The notes under the pieces: model-generated
What the model was told of the DNA's origin: nothing
Database searches by the model: none
Seen by the model: only the letters and a program-made list of their open reading frames with translations
Made by a program: the position numbers and the translations under genes
Origin: a virus
Direction: 5' to 3' (one strand)
IMG/VR virus record: IMGVR_UViG_3300049729_000057
Location: 1 to 23,159 of that record
DNA: 23,159 nt
Part shown: positions 292 to 20,225 of the stretch, piece by piece
Position numbering within the stretch: position 1 is the stretch's first letter
Layout of the letters: each line of letters opens with the position of its first letter

Positions 292-2435
292 CCGAACTTC
301 ATTGGGACGTAGAAACTCGAAGTGAAGCTGACCTCGATGAGGTCGGTCTTGCCAATTATTTCGACCACCCCAGTACCGAACTCATACTGAGCCAACATGC
401 CATCGACGAAGGTAAAGTTCATCTGTGGCAGCCGCATTTAGACCCAAATCCACCCATTGAACTTATCGACGCCCTGAACGACCCATTCATAATCGCAAAT
501 TCCTGGGGAGCCGCATTTGAAAGAAGCGCGGCTCTACGGTTTTTCAAGATAGACAAGCCGCTCCCGGAGTGGCGGTGCTCGATGGTTCGCGCCAGGTACT
601 TGTCCCTCCCGGGAGGTCTGGACGAAGCGGGGCGCATCTTAGGGCTCAAGGAATCAGAAGCCAAGATAAAAGACGGTAAACGGCTCATACGAAAGTTTTG
701 TTCCCCCGAAGAACCCGGAGGGGCTGAGACTTTGTTTGGAAAGAGTCTACCAACTTTCAGGAACTGGGCGACCGACCCCGAAGATTGGGGACGATTCTGC
801 GAATATGCTGTTCGAGATGTAATTGCCGAGAGAATTATCGCCACCAAAAAACTCAAGAAATTTCCGCTTCCGGATCGAGAATGGGAAAACTGGTTTTTAG
901 AGCAGCAGGTGAATTCCACCGGCTGGAGTGTAGACATGGACCTGGTGAGGGGGGCTCAATTCATTGTTGGAAAAGAGATGGAGCGGCTCGCCCACAGGCT
1001 TCACGAACTCACAAAGCTAGAAAACCCCAACAGCGTTACACAACTGCAACCGTGGCTTCAGGAACGAGGGTATACTTTCTCTTCTGTCGATAAAAACTTC
1101 GTTGCCCGGGCAATGTCCGGAGAGTGCGATCTGACGGAGGAAGCCCGAGAAGTTCTGATCCTGCGGGGACAAACCTCGAAATCTTCTATTCGCAAGTACA
1201 CAAACATCGCGGACATGGTAAGCTCGGACGGGCGTCTGCGACACCAATACACTTTTATGGGGGCCGCGCGCACCGGCAGGGAGGCCGCACACGGCGTAAA
1301 CATGGGGAATTTGCCGAAACCGGTGAAGTCTGTTGAAGATCGTATGCCTGAAGCAATTCATCTTGTCCGGATAATGGACTACGAAGGAGTTAAACGAGAA
1401 TTTGAGAAGCCCTTAGACGTGGTGGCTTCCACTGTTCGTGCCTCTTTCCGCGCACCGGAAGGAAAGAAGTTGGTCGTAGCAGACTTGTCTGCAATCGAAA
1501 ATGTTGGTGCGTGCTTCTTGTCTCGGTGCGAGGCGGGAATGAACGTGTTTAGAGAAAACCGCGACCCCTACTTAGATTTTGCGATGCACTTTTACAAGCA
1601 AACGTACGAAGAACTAGCCGCAGAATATGACGAGGGTCGGGGTAACAAGTCCAAACGAACGATGTGTAAACCTGCCACCCTGGGCTCGGGTTTTGGATTG
1701 GGTCCGGGCAAGGAAGTAATCGACCGCAAGACTGGAGAGACGACCTGGGAAGGGCTACTAGGCTACGCAAGGTCCATGAACGTCGTTATGACACAGGAGG
1801 AAGCAGTCAAAGCCATACAGGTCTTTCGTTCCGTCTACCCCGAGATTCCTCAGACGTGGAAGGATTTGGAGCGTGCCGCGCGCCGGGCAATTAAAAACCC
1901 GGGGAAGGTAGTTGGCGTCGGAATTCCGGCTACGGAGAGGGAGAAAGAGTGGTTTGCGGAGAAGGGCCGCAAAATCTACAGCGACCCCCTCTTGTCGTTT
2001 TTATGCCACGGAACCAAAGTCCTCGAATTACGTCTTCCGAGTGGGAGAAGCCTTCACTACATCGATCCTACTGTGGAGGAAGAAGAATACGAATGGAAGG
2101 ACAAAAAGCTGAAAGGGGAGAAAATCTCCTACTACGGCAAGGAGCAGAATTCAACCCATTGGGGGAGGGTACCAACGCATGGAGGAAAACTTTTTGAGAA
2201 CAGTGATCAGGCGTGGGCCCGAGATATTTTGTTCAACGGAATGCAGGAAGCGAACAAAGCTGGGTTTGAGATTATGGGCTCGACCTACGACGAAATTATC
2301 ACGTTGGTGCCGGAAGACTCTCCACTGACTGTGGATCGGCTATGCGAATGTATGACAAAGAAACCGGACTGGATGCCAGACGGCGTGCCACTAAAGGCGG
2401 CGGGGTACGAGGCAAAGGAATACAAGAAGGAATGA
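288..2435 (+). CDS. family A DNA polymerase with 3'-5' exonuclease domain
   Basis: 715 residues from GTG at 288. That start is preferred over TTG at 252 because GGGGAG lies just upstream and it forms a GTGA overlap with the preceding stop. The N-terminus carries a DnaQ-type Exo I motif (D7, E9 in WDVETRS) in a phage-type proofreading domain. The palm has motif A with D399 in ADLSAIEN, motif B around R457 and K461 (RTMCKPATLGSGFG), and motif C as Y667-D668-E669, where most family A enzymes have H-D-E. It would copy the phage genome with the primase-helicase at 21144. The coding region contains a copy of the 15-bp dispersed element at 1365. No 5'-nuclease domain is present. Confidence 0.95.
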   Translation: MTELHWDVETRSEADLDEVGLANYFDHPSTELILSQHAIDEGKVHLWQPHLDPNPPIELIDALNDPFIIANSWGAAFERSAALRFFKIDKPLPEWRCSMVRARYLSLPGGLDEAGRILGLKESEAKIKDGKRLIRKFCSPEEPGGAETLFGKSLPTFRNWATDPEDWGRFCEYAVRDVIAERIIATKKLKKFPLPDREWENWFLEQQVNSTGWSVDMDLVRGAQFIVGKEMERLAHRLHELTKLENPNSVTQLQPWLQERGYTFSSVDKNFVARAMSGECDLTEEAREVLILRGQTSKSSIRKYTNIADMVSSDGRLRHQYTFMGAARTGREAAHGVNMGNLPKPVKSVEDRMPEAIHLVRIMDYEGVKREFEKPLDVVASTVRASFRAPEGKKLVVADLSAIENVGACFLSRCEAGMNVFRENRDPYLDFAMHFYKQTYEELAAEYDEGRGNKSKRTMCKPATLGSGFGLGPGKEVIDRKTGETTWEGLLGYARSMNVVMTQEEAVKAIQVFRSVYPEIPQTWKDLERAARRAIKNPGKVVGVGIPATEREKEWFAEKGRKIYSDPLLSFLCHGTKVLELRLPSGRSLHYIDPTVEEEEYEWKDKKLKGEKISYYGKEQNSTHWGRVPTHGGKLFENSDQAWARDILFNGMQEANKAGFEIMGSTYDEIITLVPEDSPLTVDRLCECMTKKPDWMPDGVPLKAAGYEAKEYKKE
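1365..1379 (+). repeat. 15-bp dispersed element copy (GTCCGGATAATGGAC)
   Basis: Matches the consensus GTCCRGATAATGGAC exactly. It lies inside the polymerase gene and is read as residues LVRIMDY, so it is not limited to gene borders. Confidence 0.75.
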
Positions 2436-2445
2436 AAAATAGTTG

Positions 2446-2473
2446 TTGACACAACCCGACCTCGTGGTATAAT
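2446..2473 (+). promoter_or_regulatory. sigma70-like promoter, TTGACA-16-TATAAT
   Basis: A perfect -35 (TTGACA, 2446-2451) and perfect -10 (TATAAT, 2468-2473) are 16 bp apart in the 63-base gap after the polymerase. The -10 is extended (TGG before TATAAT) and shares CGTGGTATAATG with three other sites in the window. It would give a leader of roughly 20 bases before the gene at 2499. Confidence 0.85.
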
Positions 2474-2498
2474 GGGGTCTGAATAGGAGGAACAAGAG

Positions 2499-6022: not shown

Positions 6023-6033
6023 AAATAAATATG

Positions 6034-6061
6034 TTTCCAGAGCCTGAAACCGTGGTATAAT
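6034..6061 (+). promoter_or_regulatory. promoter, TTTCCA-16-TATAAT with extended -10
   Basis: The -10 (6056-6061) lies in GAAACCGTGGTATAATG, nearly identical to the sites at 13629 and 19726. A weaker -35 (TTTCCA) lies at exactly 16 bp, the same spacing as at 2446. It begins a leader of about 150 bases before the gene at 6215. Confidence 0.8.
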
Positions 6062-6120
6062 GGGGGTAGTTTGAAAGCTCAGTTGGTGGTGACGATTGCG
6101 GGCGAGGACTCCCGTCCTGA

Positions 6121-10967: not shown

Positions 10968-11198
10968 ATGCGAATTCTGTGTCTGGGACTTTTACTGCTG
11001 ACCGGCTGCGGGCGGGACAACAGCGACTACCGCTATAATGTTATGGGAACCGCCTCTATGTTTTACTACACCGACAAGATCGAAATCGGAAGTCCGGATC
11101 AGAGAGACAATGCAAACTGCATCAACTTCGTAAATATGGACGGTAGACACATAACCCTTTGCGGAAGCTACGAAATCATAGACAAACATGCCCGCTAA
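10968..11198 (+). CDS. putative small lipoprotein
   Basis: 76 residues. ATG 10968 is chosen because GGAGGAGGG sits at the right distance; 10950 and 10965 are in-frame alternatives. MRILCLGLLLLTGCGRD is a short lipoprotein signal with a lipobox (LLTGC), predicting a lipid-anchored protein outside the inner membrane. The mature part (about 62 residues) has two cysteines (CINF and LCGSYE) that could pair. A surface role such as blocking superinfection is possible but unsupported. It overlaps the helicase gene by 11 bases. Confidence 0.72.
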   Translation: MRILCLGLLLLTGCGRDNSDYRYNVMGTASMFYYTDKIEIGSPDQRDNANCINFVNMDGRHITLCGSYEIIDKHAR

Positions 11199-12210
11199 GA
11201 AACCAACCCCCAAGCCGATCTCACTGAATGAGGAGCAACAGGCGGTGGTGTCCGCGCGCGAAGGATACTGGTGCTGCCTCGCCGGGCCGGGCTCGGGAAA
11301 ATCAGCATGTGTCGTATCTAGGTTTGCTGAGCTTATCAAAGAAGGCGTGTCGCCAGACGACATATTGTCCCTTAGCTTCACCAAAGTTGCGGCCAAAAAT
11401 CTACGCGACCGGGTCGAAGCTCAAGTAGGGAAACTAAATCTAACCCGTATGGCAGGCGCGGTGACGTTCCATAGTCTGGGCTTGAGCTTTGCTCAATTGG
11501 AGAAAGATGAGTTCCCATTCAAATTGGCAGACGATTTACCCCTTGCCACAGAGCCCGTCGCTGGAAAATTATCAGCAATTGCCGCCAGACGATTCGACGT
11601 TGATCCCCGTCGCCTTCGGGCCGTGGCAAGTCTTTATCGAAGAAAGAGGGTGGGTCCTACTCAAGCGGTACGAGATGCTGAGAATCATATCGATGCTGGG
11701 GAACTAAAACTTGCTCTCGCCTACAAGGATTATTGCAAGCGGCAGGAAGCCGAAGGCTTGCTCGATTTCGATTCGTTAATTTTTCACATGGTTCAGATAC
11801 TGGACAAAAAATCAGAGGTGAGGGGGCGATGGAAAAGAGATTGGCTGCAACTGGACGAGAGCCAAGACATGAGTCAAATCGAGTGGGACCTTGCACGGCT
11901 CGTCAGCGGGAAATCGGTCCTTACGGTAGGGGATACGTCGCAGGGTATCTATGGCTTCCGGGGGAGCGACTCCAAATTATTTGCCTCGATGAGCGACTTA
12001 TTCCCGGGCACCCAAACTATGTACCTGGCTTGCAACTACAGGTCAACTCCAGAAATCATTGACTTCATCCGACCTATTTCATCGTCGCAGGACCTGGCTT
12101 TGAAGTTTCACACTCCAAATGCCTCGGGCCCGGCCCCCGTGGTTAAGGGATTTTTGACACCATTTGCCGAGGCTGAATGGGTTGTGAAACAAATCAAGGA
12201 GGGAAAATGA
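11188..12210 (+). CDS. UvrD/Rep-like helicase, N-terminal half (split gene)
   Basis: 340 residues. Motif I GPGSGKS (33-39), Ia LSFTKVAAKNLRDRV (62-76), motif II LDESQD (222-227), motif III GDTSQGIYGFRGSD (248-261) and motif IV NYRST (283-287) are in the order of superfamily 1A helicases. The chain ends after EAEWVVKQIKEG, within domain 2A. Motifs V and VI are missing here but are found in a separate gene at 12823. Two small genes lie between the halves. The two chains probably assemble into one ATP-driven DNA helicase. No strong SD precedes the ATG; translation may couple to the lipoprotein gene. Confidence 0.9.
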   Translation: MPAKKPTPKPISLNEEQQAVVSAREGYWCCLAGPGSGKSACVVSRFAELIKEGVSPDDILSLSFTKVAAKNLRDRVEAQVGKLNLTRMAGAVTFHSLGLSFAQLEKDEFPFKLADDLPLATEPVAGKLSAIAARRFDVDPRRLRAVASLYRRKRVGPTQAVRDAENHIDAGELKLALAYKDYCKRQEAEGLLDFDSLIFHMVQILDKKSEVRGRWKRDWLQLDESQDMSQIEWDLARLVSGKSVLTVGDTSQGIYGFRGSDSKLFASMSDLFPGTQTMYLACNYRSTPEIIDFIRPISSSQDLALKFHTPNASGPAPVVKGFLTPFAEAEWVVKQIKEGK

Positions 12211-12542
12211 AACTTTCAGGGGAGGACGGATGGTGTATGTGGATGTACGAAGCCCCTCCGTTTGGGGCTCTGATTCAGATATGCAGAGAGGAATGGGAGG
12301 AGCCCTCCCTCGCTAAAAGAGAAGACTGCCGCCCGGAGCTTAATATCTACGGCTTGTACTGGAGACTGACAGGGATCGGAAGGATGTATCTTGAGTCTCA
12401 TCCGGTCCGCACAGCTTATCAACAAATGAATGGGTATAAAGGGTCCGTACAAATGGGCAGCTTTATGTCAAATTTGCTCGGTATGTTAGGCGAGGTTGGG
12501 GACTGCATTTCCGACGCCGGATTGATAGAGGAGTCCAGATAA
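12207..12542 (+). CDS. hypothetical protein between the helicase halves
   Basis: 111 residues from ATG 12207, with SD AAGGAGGG and an ATGA overlap with the first helicase half. The N-terminal half is tryptophan-rich (DGWCMWMYEAPPFG). The C-terminal half is a Gly/Met-rich helix (SFMSNLLGMLGEVGDCISD). No HNH, GIY-YIG or LAGLIDADG motif is visible, so it does not look like a homing nuclease. Its stop lies inside the 15-bp element at 12533. Confidence 0.72.
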   Translation: MKLSGEDGWCMWMYEAPPFGALIQICREEWEEPSLAKREDCRPELNIYGLYWRLTGIGRMYLESHPVRTAYQQMNGYKGSVQMGSFMSNLLGMLGEVGDCISDAGLIEESR

Positions 12543-12547
12543 TGGAA
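12533..12547 (+). repeat. 15-bp dispersed element copy (GTCCAGATAATGGAA)
   Basis: One mismatch, in the last base. It contains both the TAA stop of the upstream gene and the ATG start of the next one (TAATG). Confidence 0.75.
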
Positions 12548-12823
12548 AACTGCGAATGCAGATGCCACAGCGATGTCTCTTCAAATAAATCCTACGGTGG
12601 GTGGTTCTGCTGGAAATGCAAGGAGAACCATGAACCCATAAAGGCGGTGGTCGGACAATATGCAGACTACTTTGACACCGGTATCTGGTCAATGGATTGT
12701 GGTCGTATTGTTGCCCCAGAGGACCTCACTATTTCGCAACTCAAGGACTTCCTGTTAGCCTCCGGCGGAGCGGTATATCTGAGGCAAGACGGGAAGATTG
12801 TCTGGATTCCGGGAGAACGATAA
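12542..12823 (+). CDS. cysteine-rich small protein between the helicase halves
   Basis: 93 residues starting inside the 15-bp element. C4, C6, C8, H9, C23, C26 and H30 (CECRCH ... CWKCKENH) suggest a zinc-binding N-terminus. The C-terminal part contains a helix (LTISQLKDFLLASGG) and two strands ending VYLRQDGKIVWIPG, a compact fold. It overlaps the second helicase half by one base. Function unknown. Confidence 0.72.
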   Translation: MENCECRCHSDVSSNKSYGGWFCWKCKENHEPIKAVVGQYADYFDTGIWSMDCGRIVAPEDLTISQLKDFLLASGGAVYLRQDGKIVWIPGER

Positions 12824-12836
12824 TGGACACGACGGC
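12822..12836 (+). repeat. half-site of the 15-bp element at the second helicase start
   Basis: GATAATGGAC, the right part of the consensus, is intact, while the GTCC arm is missing. It spans the TAA stop and the ATG start, like the copy at 12533. It may be a decayed copy. Confidence 0.35.
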
Positions 12837-13644
12837 AATCTTGTCGAGGACCAATCTCGGGCTCCGACCGTTCGAGCAGGCGTTGACAGAAGCTAACGTC
12901 CCCTACCACCTTCTTGGGCGCGCAGGTTTCTGGGCACAAAATGAGGTTCGCACAAGTCTCGCTTTTCTGGGTTGTTCCTTGTACCCGTCTGACTACCTCC
13001 TCTCCCAGGCGATTCGAGCACCGTTCGCGGTCACTAAGTTCTTGCCCAAGACGAAGCTCGCGGCACGTCTCAAGGAATTGAAGGACGAGGATACTTCGTA
13101 TTGGAAGCTGCTCACACAAGAACCGCACTCGCTCGTCGAGAACAAGAACCTGGAAGCTCTTAACAACTTTGTCCAGTTCATTCACGCACTCAGCCGGTAC
13201 CGCGATCTTCCCCCGGGTGACGCCCTCAAGAAAATTCTGGAGTCTTTGCGCGCGTGGGATTACTATGCCGAGGAGGAAAGCAGTGGGCTGGACAATGATC
13301 CTGTCGCCAACCTCGTCGAGCTTTGCAAGCTGGCCGCGAAACACCAGACGGTCAAAGAATTTTTGGATTATTGTCGGAAGGTAACTGCGGCCTCGAAGTC
13401 GAAGAAGGGCGTTGCTTTAAGCACAATTCACGGCGCGAAAGGGCTTCAGTGGTCACATGTTTTCCTTGTGGGCTGCCAGGAAGGTATGATCCCGCATTCG
13501 AAATCAGACGATCTGCCGGGGGAACAGAACTGTTTCTTCGTGGCCTGTAGTCGAGCGGAACGGGAATTAACAATTAGTTACAGCGGACAGCCCTCCCCGT
13601 TCCTAAAAGATTTTCTGAGCAAGAAACCGGAAACTGTGGTATAA
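12823..13644 (+). CDS. UvrD/Rep-like helicase, C-terminal half (split gene)
   Basis: 273 residues with its own SD (GGGAG) and ATG. It begins with TTAILSRTN, the segment that directly follows the end of the 11188 protein in unsplit UvrD, PcrA and Rep. A 2B-like region (FEQALTEANVPYHLLGRAGF ...) follows. Motif V is STIHGAKGLQW (200-210) and motif VI is FFVACSRAERELTIS (238-252). The parts do not overlap and nothing obvious is missing, so this looks like a working two-chain enzyme. The last codons and stop (E-T-V-V-TAA) form the -10 of the next promoter. Confidence 0.88.
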   Translation: MDTTAILSRTNLGLRPFEQALTEANVPYHLLGRAGFWAQNEVRTSLAFLGCSLYPSDYLLSQAIRAPFAVTKFLPKTKLAARLKELKDEDTSYWKLLTQEPHSLVENKNLEALNNFVQFIHALSRYRDLPPGDALKKILESLRAWDYYAEEESSGLDNDPVANLVELCKLAAKHQTVKEFLDYCRKVTAASKSKKGVALSTIHGAKGLQWSHVFLVGCQEGMIPHSKSDDLPGEQNCFFVACSRAERELTISYSGQPSPFLKDFLSKKPETVV

Positions 13645-13645
13645 T
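13629..13645 (+). promoter_or_regulatory. extended -10 promoter overlapping a gene end
   Basis: GGAAACTGTGGTATAAT with TATAAT at 13640-13645 and TGG before it. No convincing -35 is seen at 16-17 bp, so it relies on the extended -10. The TAA of the helicase gene is part of the hexamer. It would express the genes from 13663. Confidence 0.65.
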
Positions 13646-13662
13646 GAATCTGAGGAGACAAA

Positions 13663-14214
13663 ATGAACAAGCCTAAATTCAACTTCGGAGACTATGTCTT
13701 CCACGCCTACCTCCAATCCTCTACGAAGTGGGTGCCCTGCATAAGCTGCTCTGGTAAAGGATATGTGACCATTATCCTTGAAGGCGAGACCTTCACAATT
13801 GACTGCGAAGACTGTAAACGAGGGTACGAAGGATCGAACGGGAGCAGAAGCGGGTACGTTTACGAACCGGCAACCAGAGAAGGGCCAATTTGCGGGGTGG
13901 AAAAGCAAACCTCCGAACCGTGGGATTTCGAGTATCGAATCTCCGCCGGGAGCAATAGCTGTTGGTGCTTGAAGGAACCAGACGTTTTCGCCACGAAAGA
14001 GGAGGCTCTTGCCCGAGCAGAAGTTCTGAAACAGGAACGGGACGCCGAAGAAACGGAAAGACTCCTCTCCAAAACCAAGCCCGACAAATCGTGGGTTTGG
14101 AACGTCCGCTACTACCAAAGTCAGATTCGAGAAGCACAAGAAACAATCGAACGAGTGACTCTACAATTGAATGCCGCAAAAAAGCACGTCAAAGAGGAGA
14201 AAAATGTTTCCTGA
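13663..14214 (+). CDS. DnaJ-like zinc motif protein with C-terminal coiled coil
   Basis: 183 residues, with SD GAGGAG after the 13629 promoter. C26, C29, C48 and C51 (CISCSGKGY ... CEDCKRGYEGS) have the CxxCxGxG spacing of DnaJ-type zinc fingers. Residues about 95-183 are helical and charged, with a likely coiled coil at the end (QIREAQETIERVTLQLNAAK). No J domain is present. Such zinc modules are common in small phage proteins and may mediate protein or nucleic acid contacts. Confidence 0.78.
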   Translation: MNKPKFNFGDYVFHAYLQSSTKWVPCISCSGKGYVTIILEGETFTIDCEDCKRGYEGSNGSRSGYVYEPATREGPICGVEKQTSEPWDFEYRISAGSNSCWCLKEPDVFATKEEALARAEVLKQERDAEETERLLSKTKPDKSWVWNVRYYQSQIREAQETIERVTLQLNAAKKHVKEEKNVS

Positions 14215-14536
14215 ACAAGACAGCATTTGGTACAAGTACCCATTGATGAGCAAGCTGGAGAAGCTCATGCCAAAGAAGCCGGAGCCGACGTGGACGCCCG
14301 GCGATGGAATGTTCCGTATCCAGTGCGAACCTATCAGATACTGCGCGGAAGCGTTTGTCCATTGTCTGGACAAAGACCTGCCGGTAGATGGGAAAGAGCT
14401 TCGAGATGTCCTCTGGGTCTTTGGAGAACTTCTTTGTGGCGACATGGAGAAGATGGTGAATGTCTACATGAGGCACGCAGAGGACCTCATCGCTCTCCAA
14501 ACCAATCCGATCTACATAGTGAAGGAGAAAATATGA
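14204..14536 (+). CDS. hypothetical protein
   Basis: 110 residues. ATG 14204 has GAGGAGAAAA upstream and overlaps the previous gene by 11 bases. The chain is mostly helical from residue 40 on (CAEAFVHCLDKDLPVDGKEL, MEKMVNVYMRHAEDLIALQ). The 15-bp element at 14357 encodes part of the first helix. No family recognised. Confidence 0.72.
   Translation: MFPEQDSIWYKYPLMSKLEKLMPKKPEPTWTPGDGMFRIQCEPIRYCAEAFVHCLDKDLPVDGKELRDVLWVFGELLCGDMEKMVNVYMRHAEDLIALQTNPIYIVKEKI
14357..14371 (-). repeat. 15-bp dispersed element copy, inverted (GTCCATTGTCTGGAC)
   Basis: Reverse complement GTCCAGACAATGGAC, one base from consensus. Inside the 14204 gene (residues VHCLDK). Confidence 0.65.
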
Positions 14537-14790
14537 AGCCTGTATCGCCTGTCATGCCTGGGTTTTCAGAGCCCTATGAATTCCTCTTGGCAAAGGATCA
14601 ACCAGAGTACCTACCCATACCCGCCGTCTTGGCCGAGGGGGATGACAAACGGATGTACAGCCGATGGGAATTCACGGACGAAGAGCGGGCAACAATTGCC
14701 AACGGGGGAAGCCTACTTTTCTCGCAACTTACTTTCGGGCGTCCTTTCCAACCCGTGTACTTCCAGATCGTCACCAAGGAGACCAAATGA
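14533..14790 (+). CDS. hypothetical protein
   Basis: 85 residues with SD AAGGAG and an ATGA overlap. The N-terminus is loop-rich (MKPVSPVMPGFSEPYEFLLA). The middle contains WEFTDEERATIANGGSLLFS, a short helix followed by a Gly turn. The end is a strand pair (PFQPVYFQIVTKE). The pattern of EER..IA.G....L...TFG.P..PV.~~V is seen in small phage proteins of unknown role. Confidence 0.72.
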   Translation: MKPVSPVMPGFSEPYEFLLAKDQPEYLPIPAVLAEGDDKRMYSRWEFTDEERATIANGGSLLFSQLTFGRPFQPVYFQIVTKETK

Positions 14791-15065
14791 CCTGGTGGAA
14801 CCGTAAATCAAGACCGAGTGACGATCCTCGAATTTGTCCGTTATCTGGACACACCGAAACCGAGGAGGAAAAAGAAATGAAATACAAACTGAAGACAGAC
14901 ATCCTCCATGAAATAGATCAGCGCATTCAGGGGAACGAGCCCTTCCTGTCGTTCCAATATCGTCCGAGGATGATTGTCCAGCTTAGTGGAGGCTTCTCCG
15001 GATCACATATCTTCTTTGAAGGATACACCGACTACTTGACCAAACTCATGCCGGGGACACCTTGA
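14787..15065 (+). CDS. hypothetical protein with two possible starts
   Basis: 92 residues from ATG 14787 (ATGA overlap, SD GGAGA), or 62 residues from ATG 14878, which has a stronger SD (GAGGAGG). The 15-bp element at 14836 lies between the two starts. If the later start is right, the element is again upstream of an SD and the first 30 codons are untranslated or part of another small gene. The core has strands and aromatics (FLSFQYRPRMIVQLSGGFSG). No family recognised. Confidence 0.6.
   Translation: MTWWNRKSRPSDDPRICPLSGHTETEEEKEMKYKLKTDILHEIDQRIQGNEPFLSFQYRPRMIVQLSGGFSGSHIFFEGYTDYLTKLMPGTP
14836..14850 (-). repeat. 15-bp dispersed element copy, inverted (GTCCGTTATCTGGAC)
   Basis: Reverse complement GTCCAGATAACGGAC, one base from the perfect consensus. 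Lies about 15 bases before the GAGGAGG of the internal start at 14878. Confidence 0.72.
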
Positions 15066-18589: not shown

Positions 18590-19741
18590 GTGGCGGATCA
18601 AAAAGGCATATATCAACCGTGGAGCCATGAAGAGTTTATGGCGGACAGAAAGGTGCGTCGGATGAGCACCACGGAAGCCAAAACTTATATGATGCTCCTG
18701 CACGAGGCTTTCATCTGCTCAACACGTCCTAACCTCCCAGACGACGAAGAAGAACTATACCTGATGGCGTATTGTACGGATCGAAGAGAGTGGGATTCCG
18801 TCAAGGATGCCGTTTTAGGGATGTTTGACAAAGATGTAGTTGAGGGCGTGCCCGTGTTGACCAATAAACGTCTTGTCAAAGACTGGGCGCGTCTACAAGA
18901 GATTAGGGAAGCTAGGTCAGAGGCAGGAAAAGCCAGCGCGGCTAAACGCAAGTCAACAAATGTTCAACAAACCTCAACAATTGGCAACAAGGAAGTAAGT
19001 AAGGAAGTAAAGGAAGTAAGAGAAGAGAAGGAAGAAAGCACTCCCGAACCTCTCTCTTTTGAAAACGAAGACGGACAAGGAGAGGATATGAACCTGAAAA
19101 CCTTCAAAGCGGAGATGACCGGCGTCGGAGTTCGGTGTGGACAAAAAGTAAAGGGGTACGACAATACCTGGGACGAACTCAGGATTCTCGGGATTGCCCA
19201 CGGGTATTCGGCTGTTGTCCGGGATTTTGAGGAGTTTCTGAACGAGACTCCGGGAAACGAGTACCCCAAGGGTGCTTTAGTGGCTTACTCCTGGGCTGCG
19301 GCAGATCGCCTTCGCGCGGATTCCCCGGTACAAGCGTCCGCCAAGGACCCGGAGGTAGTTTCCCTTGCCCGGGAGCTTACCTACCTCTCAGACGGGCAAA
19401 TCAGCTTCGGGGACAAGCATCGGGTACGCCTGGCCGAGGTGTTGAAAGAGTTCACGGCTGTGGAAATCCAATCGGTGTTCCGGACCTGGCTCCAGGATCA
19501 AGACCTGACTGACCCCAAGAACCTGGGGTATCTACCGGGGAACTTTGTTCAGAAAGTGGACGGCCTGGCCTACACCTCCCGGCGTAAGGCTGAGGAGGCT
19601 AAGCAGGCCCAAAAGGACCGGGACACAGCCGTCGCTCGGCTTCAGGCCGAAGCGGAGGCCGACCGCTTAAAACGAGAAGGGACCAAAAACCAAGAAAATA
19701 ATTTGGTGGACCCGGTTTTTGGGGGAGAAACTGTGGTATAA
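18590..19741 (+). CDS. putative replication initiator or helicase loader (DUF1376-like)
   Basis: 383 residues from GTG 18590 with AGGAGAAG upstream. Residues 1-122 follow the DUF1376-type pattern: a FMADRKVRRMSTTEAKTYMMLLHEAF helix pair, an LPDDEEELYLMAYC segment, a WDSVKDAVLGMF helix, then EARSEAGKASAAKRKS, the Ala-rich end seen in phage replisome organisers. A Lys/Glu linker, a second helical domain (about 160-330) and a coiled-coil tail follow. The final codons E-T-V-V-TAA form part of the promoter at 19726. It lies beside the tandem repeat at 20107, which could be its target. Confidence 0.68.
   Translation: MADQKGIYQPWSHEEFMADRKVRRMSTTEAKTYMMLLHEAFICSTRPNLPDDEEELYLMAYCTDRREWDSVKDAVLGMFDKDVVEGVPVLTNKRLVKDWARLQEIREARSEAGKASAAKRKSTNVQQTSTIGNKEVSKEVKEVREEKEESTPEPLSFENEDGQGEDMNLKTFKAEMTGVGVRCGQKVKGYDNTWDELRILGIAHGYSAVVRDFEEFLNETPGNEYPKGALVAYSWAAADRLRADSPVQASAKDPEVVSLARELTYLSDGQISFGDKHRVRLAEVLKEFTAVEIQSVFRTWLQDQDLTDPKNLGYLPGNFVQKVDGLAYTSRRKAEEAKQAQKDRDTAVARLQAEAEADRLKREGTKNQENNLVDPVFGGETVV
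19547..19561 (+). repeat. weak 15-bp element look-alike (GTTCAGAAAGTGGAC)
   Basis: Three mismatches to consensus within the initiator gene (residues VQKVDG). Probably chance, listed because spacing and ends are kept. Confidence 0.18.
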
Positions 19742-19742
19742 T
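19726..19742 (+). promoter_or_regulatory. extended -10 promoter overlapping a gene end
   Basis: AGAAACTGTGGTATAAT, with TATAAT at 19737-19742. The -35 region is poor. Its TAA ends the initiator gene. A 15-bp element starts at 19751, about where transcription should begin, giving a classic promoter-operator layout. It would drive the genes from 19805 to the primase-helicase. Confidence 0.68.
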
Positions 19743-19750
19743 GCAAATAT

Positions 19751-20078: not shown

Positions 20079-20225
20079 ATGCGTCGATCAATAAAACAGA
20101 AATATCGGTCGGGGTCGGGGTCGTGGTCGCGGTCGGGGTCGGGGTCGTGGTCGGGGTCGGGGTCGGGGTCGTGGTCGCGGTCGTGGTCGGGGTCGTGGTC
20201 GTGGTCGTGGTCGGGGTCTTATTAA
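20079..20225 (+). CDS. possible 48-residue low-complexity protein over the tandem repeat
   Basis: ATG 20079 opens a frame MRRSIKQKYR followed by an 18-unit Ser-(Gly/Trp/Arg) run ending SY. In this frame every repeat variation changes an amino acid, which argues against it being the selected frame for the repeat part. The basic first ten residues could be a real start if a +1 shift leads into the Gly-Arg frame. No good SD is seen. Confidence 0.25.
   Translation: MRRSIKQKYRSGSGSWSRSGSGSWSGSGSGSWSRSWSGSWSWSWSGSY

Follow-up and report, generated by a model that had tools for sequence, protein, structure and literature searches.

A UvrD-type helicase gene in two parts around a variable gene slot in a clade of uncultured phages

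How does a helicase gene come to lie in two pieces with other genes between them, and can the products still act as one enzyme? The question is raised by IMG/VR virus record IMGVR_UViG_3300049729_000057, a stretch of 23,159 bases that was analysed as a whole and is called the window here. A note made earlier by a model from the letters alone (the sequence-only reading) had described in it a UvrD-like helicase in two genes around two small ones. Both genes are present where it had placed them and the same split is carried by 18 other contigs, which excludes chance. We consider it probable that the products form a two-chain helicase whose gene was cut once by a short stop-start module, with the seam collecting gene cassettes later. 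Beyond the sequence-only reading, the analysis shows that the split is an old trait of a whole clade, that the gap is a slot with variable cassettes, and that the gene is broken at the repeated element, which forms the seam.

The helicase halves and the break point

The halves in the window are:
11188 to 12210, plus strand: helicase N-half, 340 amino acids, C-terminus EAEWVVKQIKEGK directly before the stop; RecA-like domains 1A and 1B and the first part of 2A, motifs I to IV
12823 to 13644, plus strand: helicase C-half, 273 amino acids, N-terminus MDTTAILSRTN; the remaining 2A plus 2B, motifs V and VI

The N-half matches Pfam family PF00580 (4.5e-41, 141.8 bits with a cut-off of 23) and the C-half matches positions 72–348 of the PF13361 (UvrD_C) profile (2.4e-24, 86.9 bits, cut-off 25.6). 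The latter profile is divided between the chains, with positions 2–63 in the N-half and 72–348 in the C-half (2–65 and 70–348 in another match). PcrA is covered from residue 11 to 341 by the N-half and from residue 355 onwards by the C-half, and in UvrD the C-half match comprises residues 350–617. All six helicase motifs are present and in order across the two chains (I AGPGSGKS, II DESQD, III GDTSQGIYGFRG, IV NYRSTP, V LSTIHGAKGLQ, VI FFVACSR), in agreement with the claim that motifs I–IV lie in the first and V–VI in the second protein with intact active-site residues. Judged by these alignments the halves together are one complete homologue of the UvrD/PcrA/Rep-type (SF1A) helicases, and the claim of a break without loss or duplication holds in that any loss or duplication is slight at most. 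The pair thus resembles UvrD, PcrA and Rep in sequence, motifs and predicted fold and differs from them in having two chains, with a break in the 2A loop that matches PcrA residues 342–354. In the solved PcrA structures 1qhh and 2pjr one chain is likewise deposited in several fragments, whose ends do not coincide with the break found here.

The position of the break was located in AlphaFold models. The intact sister gene, from locus L026, gave a model with a mean predicted local distance difference test (pLDDT) value of 91.3, which superimposes on PcrA (1qhg) with Z 40.6 over 551 aligned residues and a root-mean-square deviation of 3.6 Å and shows the 1A-1B-2A-2B fold. In this model the break site corresponds to residues 325–329, a five-residue loop between helix 314–324 and strand 330–334 in the second RecA-like domain (2A). 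The window N-half modelled alone (pLDDT 90.0; TMq 0.85 with PcrA) has a last helix, residues 325–338, that reaches the chain end and corresponds to the L026 helix. About two residues at most separate the N-half terminus from the end of the helix, and two to six residues precede the strand in the C-half, so that the models place the break in a surface loop of domain 2A. As the N-half model ends at the break helix, the C-half must supply the rest of 2A, 2B and motifs V–VI, and by analogy with the family neither chain alone would be a complete helicase. We infer that the two chains assemble and are active, in which case 3'-5' unwinding and DNA-dependent ATPase activity would be expected.

The interval from the N-half stop to the C-half start is 612 nt (12211–12822) and holds two open reading frames of 111 and 93 amino acids; the two small genes had been recognized before, with the length given as 613 bases. 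It had also been stated correctly that both halves are separate genes with their own starts, to which we add that the four genes overlap from stop to start, as read directly from ATGA at 12207, TAATG at 12540 and TAATG at 12821. This series looks like an operon of four translationally coupled genes. Three weak terminator-like sites were found in the scanned region, compared to 4.9 expected in shuffled sequences, and none prominent lies between the halves.

Relatives and history of the split

Relatives were surveyed by two alignment-based scans of IMG/VR and a hidden Markov model map of all loci. As the sequence-only reading had proposed to look for, the same split exists in relatives, namely on 19 contigs representing 15 distinct sequences, both numbers including the window. 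Besides the window these are L004, L006, L007, L008, L010, L011, L013, L014, L015, L016 (with the near-copies L017, L018 and L020), L019, L021/L022, L023 and L024. In L004 only the C-half is seen and the contig ends inside the first cargo gene, making it uninformative on the N-half. Intact genes occur in L003, L026, L027–L032, L034–L038, L039 and L053–L056, those of L029, L031 and L039 being cut by contig ends. The first searches with single proteins returned one locus each and alignments were needed to find the split relatives, while a scan of cellular genomes gave distant helicases only. An assembly artefact was considered and rejected, as the split is common to independent contigs.

In the joint tree the split members form one clade (98/97) with the intact L026, about 50% identical, as sister, and the separate trees keep this clade as well (N-half 99/96, C-half 93/95). 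Within it L023 branches first, the remaining members being held together with 86/88. Another intact homologue, in L003, has the same PD-(D/E)XK nuclease gene downstream. Thus, alignment with intact relatives, as also proposed before, did reveal intact genes, but as sister and outgroup, and the halves show neither frameshifts nor motif decay. A single split event is the simplest reading of these trees.

Both halves are under purifying selection. Over 91 N-half and 105 C-half pairs the median proportions of nonsynonymous differences (pN) are 0.305 and 0.344 and those of synonymous differences (pS) 0.805 and 0.825, respectively, and no pair has a pN/pS above 0.53; most pS values are saturated, so that these numbers show the constraint and not its strength. 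Among closer pairs the corresponding rates are dN 0.076 and dS 0.25 for the C-halves of the window and L004, and dN 0.083 and dS 0.72 for those of L010 and L011. Across the 15 sequences, which have diverged to about 50–70% identity, the halves keep open frames and motifs, with motif V being variable. A two-chain helicase, which the sequence-only reading had called likely, is therefore the best-supported reading of these open and conserved halves.

Within the split clade the two halves differ in their histories. Their identities correlate with only 0.11 and L010 switches partners, its N-half grouping with L023 (100/99) and its C-half with L011 (100/97). Since the identity correlation is low inside the N-half too, general mosaicism may account for this as well, and we do not claim an exchange at the slot on its own. 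The homology between the window and L004 stops within a few bases of an element at 12549 and resumes just past an element in L004. The two C-halves (L004 1022–1840, window 12823–13641) are 91% identical and nearly identical outside a divergent patch over motifs V–VI; this patch is probably a recombination tract that swapped the catalytic motifs and kept functional-looking ones.

Cargo slot, stop-start module and 15-bp element

The distance from the N-half stop to the C-half start varies from -1 nt in L023 to 2,272 nt in L006, and the slot contains different small genes in most phages, with some families recurring. The cargo genes of the window are:
12207 to 12542, plus strand: cargo gene 1, 111 amino acids; family also in the slots of L010, L011, L014 and L019
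12542 to 12823, plus strand: cargo gene 2, 93 amino acids, Cys-rich N-terminus; homologue of 77% identity in L011 and, in L004, a shorter form that is recombinant

Neither of the two proteins (P0003 and P0004) has a match worth using in Pfam or PHROG. The earlier statement that no homing-nuclease motif or intron is apparent is right for the window, in which the gap holds no homing-endonuclease gene, and does not extend to its relatives, as four slots contain nucleases: a 340-amino-acid GIY-YIG homing endonuclease in L006 (phrog_314, 1.6e-31), which lies immediately before the C-half and overlaps it with its 3' end, an HNH nuclease in L011, and endonuclease VII-like open reading frames in L016 and L021 (phrog_3322). 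The slot of L015 encodes a DUF4326 protein. A cargo protein of L008 gave by eye the impression of a low-molecular-weight phosphatase but had no Pfam match, and this assignment is not claimed. Many cargo proteins end with KESR, KESE or KESS and the next protein begins with MD.

These protein ends are encoded by a 20-nt module, AAGGAGTCC-NNN-TAATGGAC (also written AAGGAGTCCATTTAATGGAC), which joins the slot genes. It consists of AAGGA ahead of the 15-bp element, giving AAGGAGTCCNNNTAATGGAC, and codes for K-E-S-x-stop of the upstream gene, a Shine-Dalgarno sequence 8 nt before the ATG, and M-D (ATGGAC) of the downstream gene. Loosely matched copies in the sampled loci number 18 in 15.2 kb of slot and 2 in 171.6 kb of flanks (p = 4e-18), an enrichment of about 100-fold over the flanking DNA. 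In the window the seams and the module read:
12196 to 12210, plus strand: left seam, AAGGAGGGAAAATGA; Shine-Dalgarno sequence in the last codons of the N-half, stop TGA overlapping the ATG of cargo gene 1
12528 to 12547, plus strand: stop-Shine-Dalgarno-start module, GAGGAGTCCAGATAATGGAA, with stop TAA and start ATG
12811 to 12828, plus strand: right seam, GGGAGAACGATAATGGAC, with the half-element TAATGGAC; stop TAA overlapping the ATG of the C-half

At the left-seam position L008, L014 and L023 read AAGGAGTC(C), and parts of the module are kept at the left seams of L008, L013 and L014. The right seam is a full module in L010, L013, L014, L016 and L023, and in L024 it lacks the AAGGA part (GAGTCCGAATAATGGAC). 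From the partial modules on the left and the full ones on the right it follows that the cargo there is bounded by module-like repeats. The simplest junction is that of L023, which has no cargo and reads ATCAAGGAGTCCATTTAATGGACAAG: one module is the entire split, and it is the sole exact module in this record of 104,680 bases. At the break position of the intact L026 neither module nor element is present.

The 15-bp element inside the module is a near-palindrome, GTCCNNNWAATGGAC, that is dispersed over the window in either orientation, for the most part at the borders of genes and also within them. Of the two copies reported before in the gap, the one at 12533 matches GTCCAGATAATGGAA almost perfectly and that at 12822 is only the right half, TAATGGAC. 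Its positions in the window are:
1365, 2709, 3818, 6189 (minus strand), 6938, 7877, 8999, 10941, 12533, 16653, 18563, 19751, 20235, 21247 (minus strand) and others; both strands: 15-bp element

Five records of 60–106 kb (L023, L026, L007, L016 and L014) contain 25 to 63 matches each, counted on both strands with perfect palindromes counted on each, while the reversed pattern as control gave 0; no match was found in the records of L003, L027 and L030. The preferred variant differs from genome to genome, and the element has the look of a binding site of the stoperator or operator type.

Downstream of the helicase follows the PD-(D/E)XK nuclease gene, a neighbourhood kept in the window, L003 and others. 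The phage encodes its own RecT, SSB and nuclease, and the helicase belongs to its replication and recombination region. A promoter-like sequence ending with GTGGTATAATG occurs four times in the window (2435–2477, 6023–6065, 13627–13646 and 19724–19743), one copy overlapping the 3' end of the C-half. At 20107–20218 the window has a tandem GGTCGT/GGTCGG array with a period of 6/12 over about 112 bp, and a similar Asp/Pro/Arg-coding repeat is located around 2050–2397 of L007. The latter record also encodes a C-5 cytosine methyltransferase (12995–14836) with an intein-like insert in the conserved PCQ motif (Hint_2 1.3e-6, LAGLIDADG_3 3.3e-5).

Origin of the cut and comparison with known systems

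The history that we favour would start from an ancestral single gene that was cut once, in one clade of uncultured phages, in the domain 2A loop that links helix and strand. Most likely a short phage-specific sequence with a Shine-Dalgarno sequence, a stop and a start, and the dispersed palindromic element inside, arrived in this loop and made ribosomes stop and restart. The seam would then have become a landing site for small-gene cassettes, some of them with homing-type nucleases, probably through recombination at module copies, which may still load and swap the cargo. N- and C-chains would be translated from one operon via the overlapping stop and start codons and fold together as one helicase. 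More tentatively, the module might be a portable seam that cuts a gene into two coupled genes without loss and between whose copies cassettes with a KESx end and an MD start are swapped, which would leave the helicase as a two-subunit enzyme with an open slot and with halves reassorting between phages.

Several points weigh against a cut by the module. L023 may have lost its cargo via recombination between two modules instead of being primitively cargo-free; its basal placement is only moderate (86/88) and the N-half tree pairs it with the cargo-bearing L010. The split members L008 and L021 have no recognisable module now, and the module, though rare, is not confined to the helicase, since at other places in these phages a small number of exact copies link further small genes, again with an upstream KESx end and a downstream MD start (L100 1882, L078 1296 and, on the minus strand and counted from its 5' end, L116 12145, L117 2575, L088 1424 and L072 2203); over the whole of IMG/VR 50 stretches match the module, some share of them by chance. 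Finally, with nucleases in four slots the cut may also have come about by a homing route. This is the chief rival, in which a free-standing homing endonuclease inserted and split the gene and in most lineages, the window among them, has since disappeared or given way to other small genes, with the same two-chain helicase as product. There is documented precedent for such a route in Aeh1 nrdA/mobE and T4 gene 60/mobA (PMC2988022), and it would explain the GIY-YIG, HNH and endonuclease VII-like genes. However, these belong to differing families in different phages, most slots are without any, and L023 has the module only and no trace of a nuclease. They may equally have reached a seam that was already there, as has been allowed for gene 43 of phage 25 because that of 44RR is split without a nuclease (PMC2988022). 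We therefore regard the homing route as rather unlikely and prefer the cut by the module.

Under either cause the product would be two chains, and the explanations that deny this fare worse. Rejoining of the halves into one chain by an intron, a split intein, a frameshift or ribosome bypass is hardly credible, even if a frameshift could be imagined at the TAATG overlap of the L023 halves, and related phage helicases of the SPO1 type carry an intein annotation. An Rfam search of the window and 12 relatives gave no match to a group I or II intron, and with the N-half stop near the helix end and the C-half start at the strand the junction has no intein residues and no space for an intein. For a bypass, the 0.4–2.3 kb of complete genes between the halves of other members are too long. 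A non-functional or decaying gene, or one half being kept for a non-helicase function, appears very unlikely as well: the divergence of the L004 C-half from the window over motifs V–VI and the varying motif V could be read this way, but the exchanged patch again encodes good motifs, and open frames with pN well below pS have persisted in both halves throughout the clade.

Split genes are already known from phages; examples from ribonucleotide reductase have been reviewed (PMC3653736), and T4-like genes in pieces include Aeh1 nrdA/mobE, T4 gene 60/mobA and gene 43 of phages 25 and 44RR (PMC2988022). As in these, a gene for a nucleic-acid enzyme is cut into neighbouring genes whose products would act as one enzyme, a nuclease lies in the gap of some relatives, stop-start overlaps suggest translational coupling, and L023 is like gene 43 of 44RR in being split without a nuclease. 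It differs from the T4-like cases in the enzyme, a UvrD-type helicase, in the clade-wide split, in the variable multi-gene cassette slot and in the repeated stop-Shine-Dalgarno-start module at the seams. In fractured genes (a term that occurs in PMC3653736) with split inteins, reported from metagenomes, a phage gene is in two parts with a nuclease between them; in contrast, the break described here has no intein parts. The start-associated sequences of Cluster K mycobacteriophages (SAS/ESAS) have GGGATAGGAGCCC 3–7 bp before start codons, about half with extra inverted repeats (PMC3203893). Like them our module is a short repeated phage sequence with AGGAG inside at gene starts, but it reads AAGGAGTCCNNNTAATGGAC instead of GGGATAGGAGCCC, spans the previous stop as well as the next start and sits within what was formerly one gene. 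Stoperators of Cluster A mycobacteriophages are tens of copies of a short site over the genome (PMC6550527, PMC9283540). The 15-bp element is dispersed in similar numbers and differs in being near-palindromic and present in both orientations, and is not known to have a repressor.

In a limited literature search no phage was found to be described with a split UvrD helicase and, as far as found, neither the phage-specific translation module nor the dispersed palindromic element has an earlier description. Split genes of phages are usually isolated cases and read as results of nuclease insertion. This clade preserves stages, from the intact gene (L026) and the bare module (L023) to one or several cargo genes (the window and others) and a homing nuclease (L006), with which the conversion of a single-chain enzyme into a heteromer can be tested directly. 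The clade also offers a natural break point for building a split UvrD/PcrA helicase.

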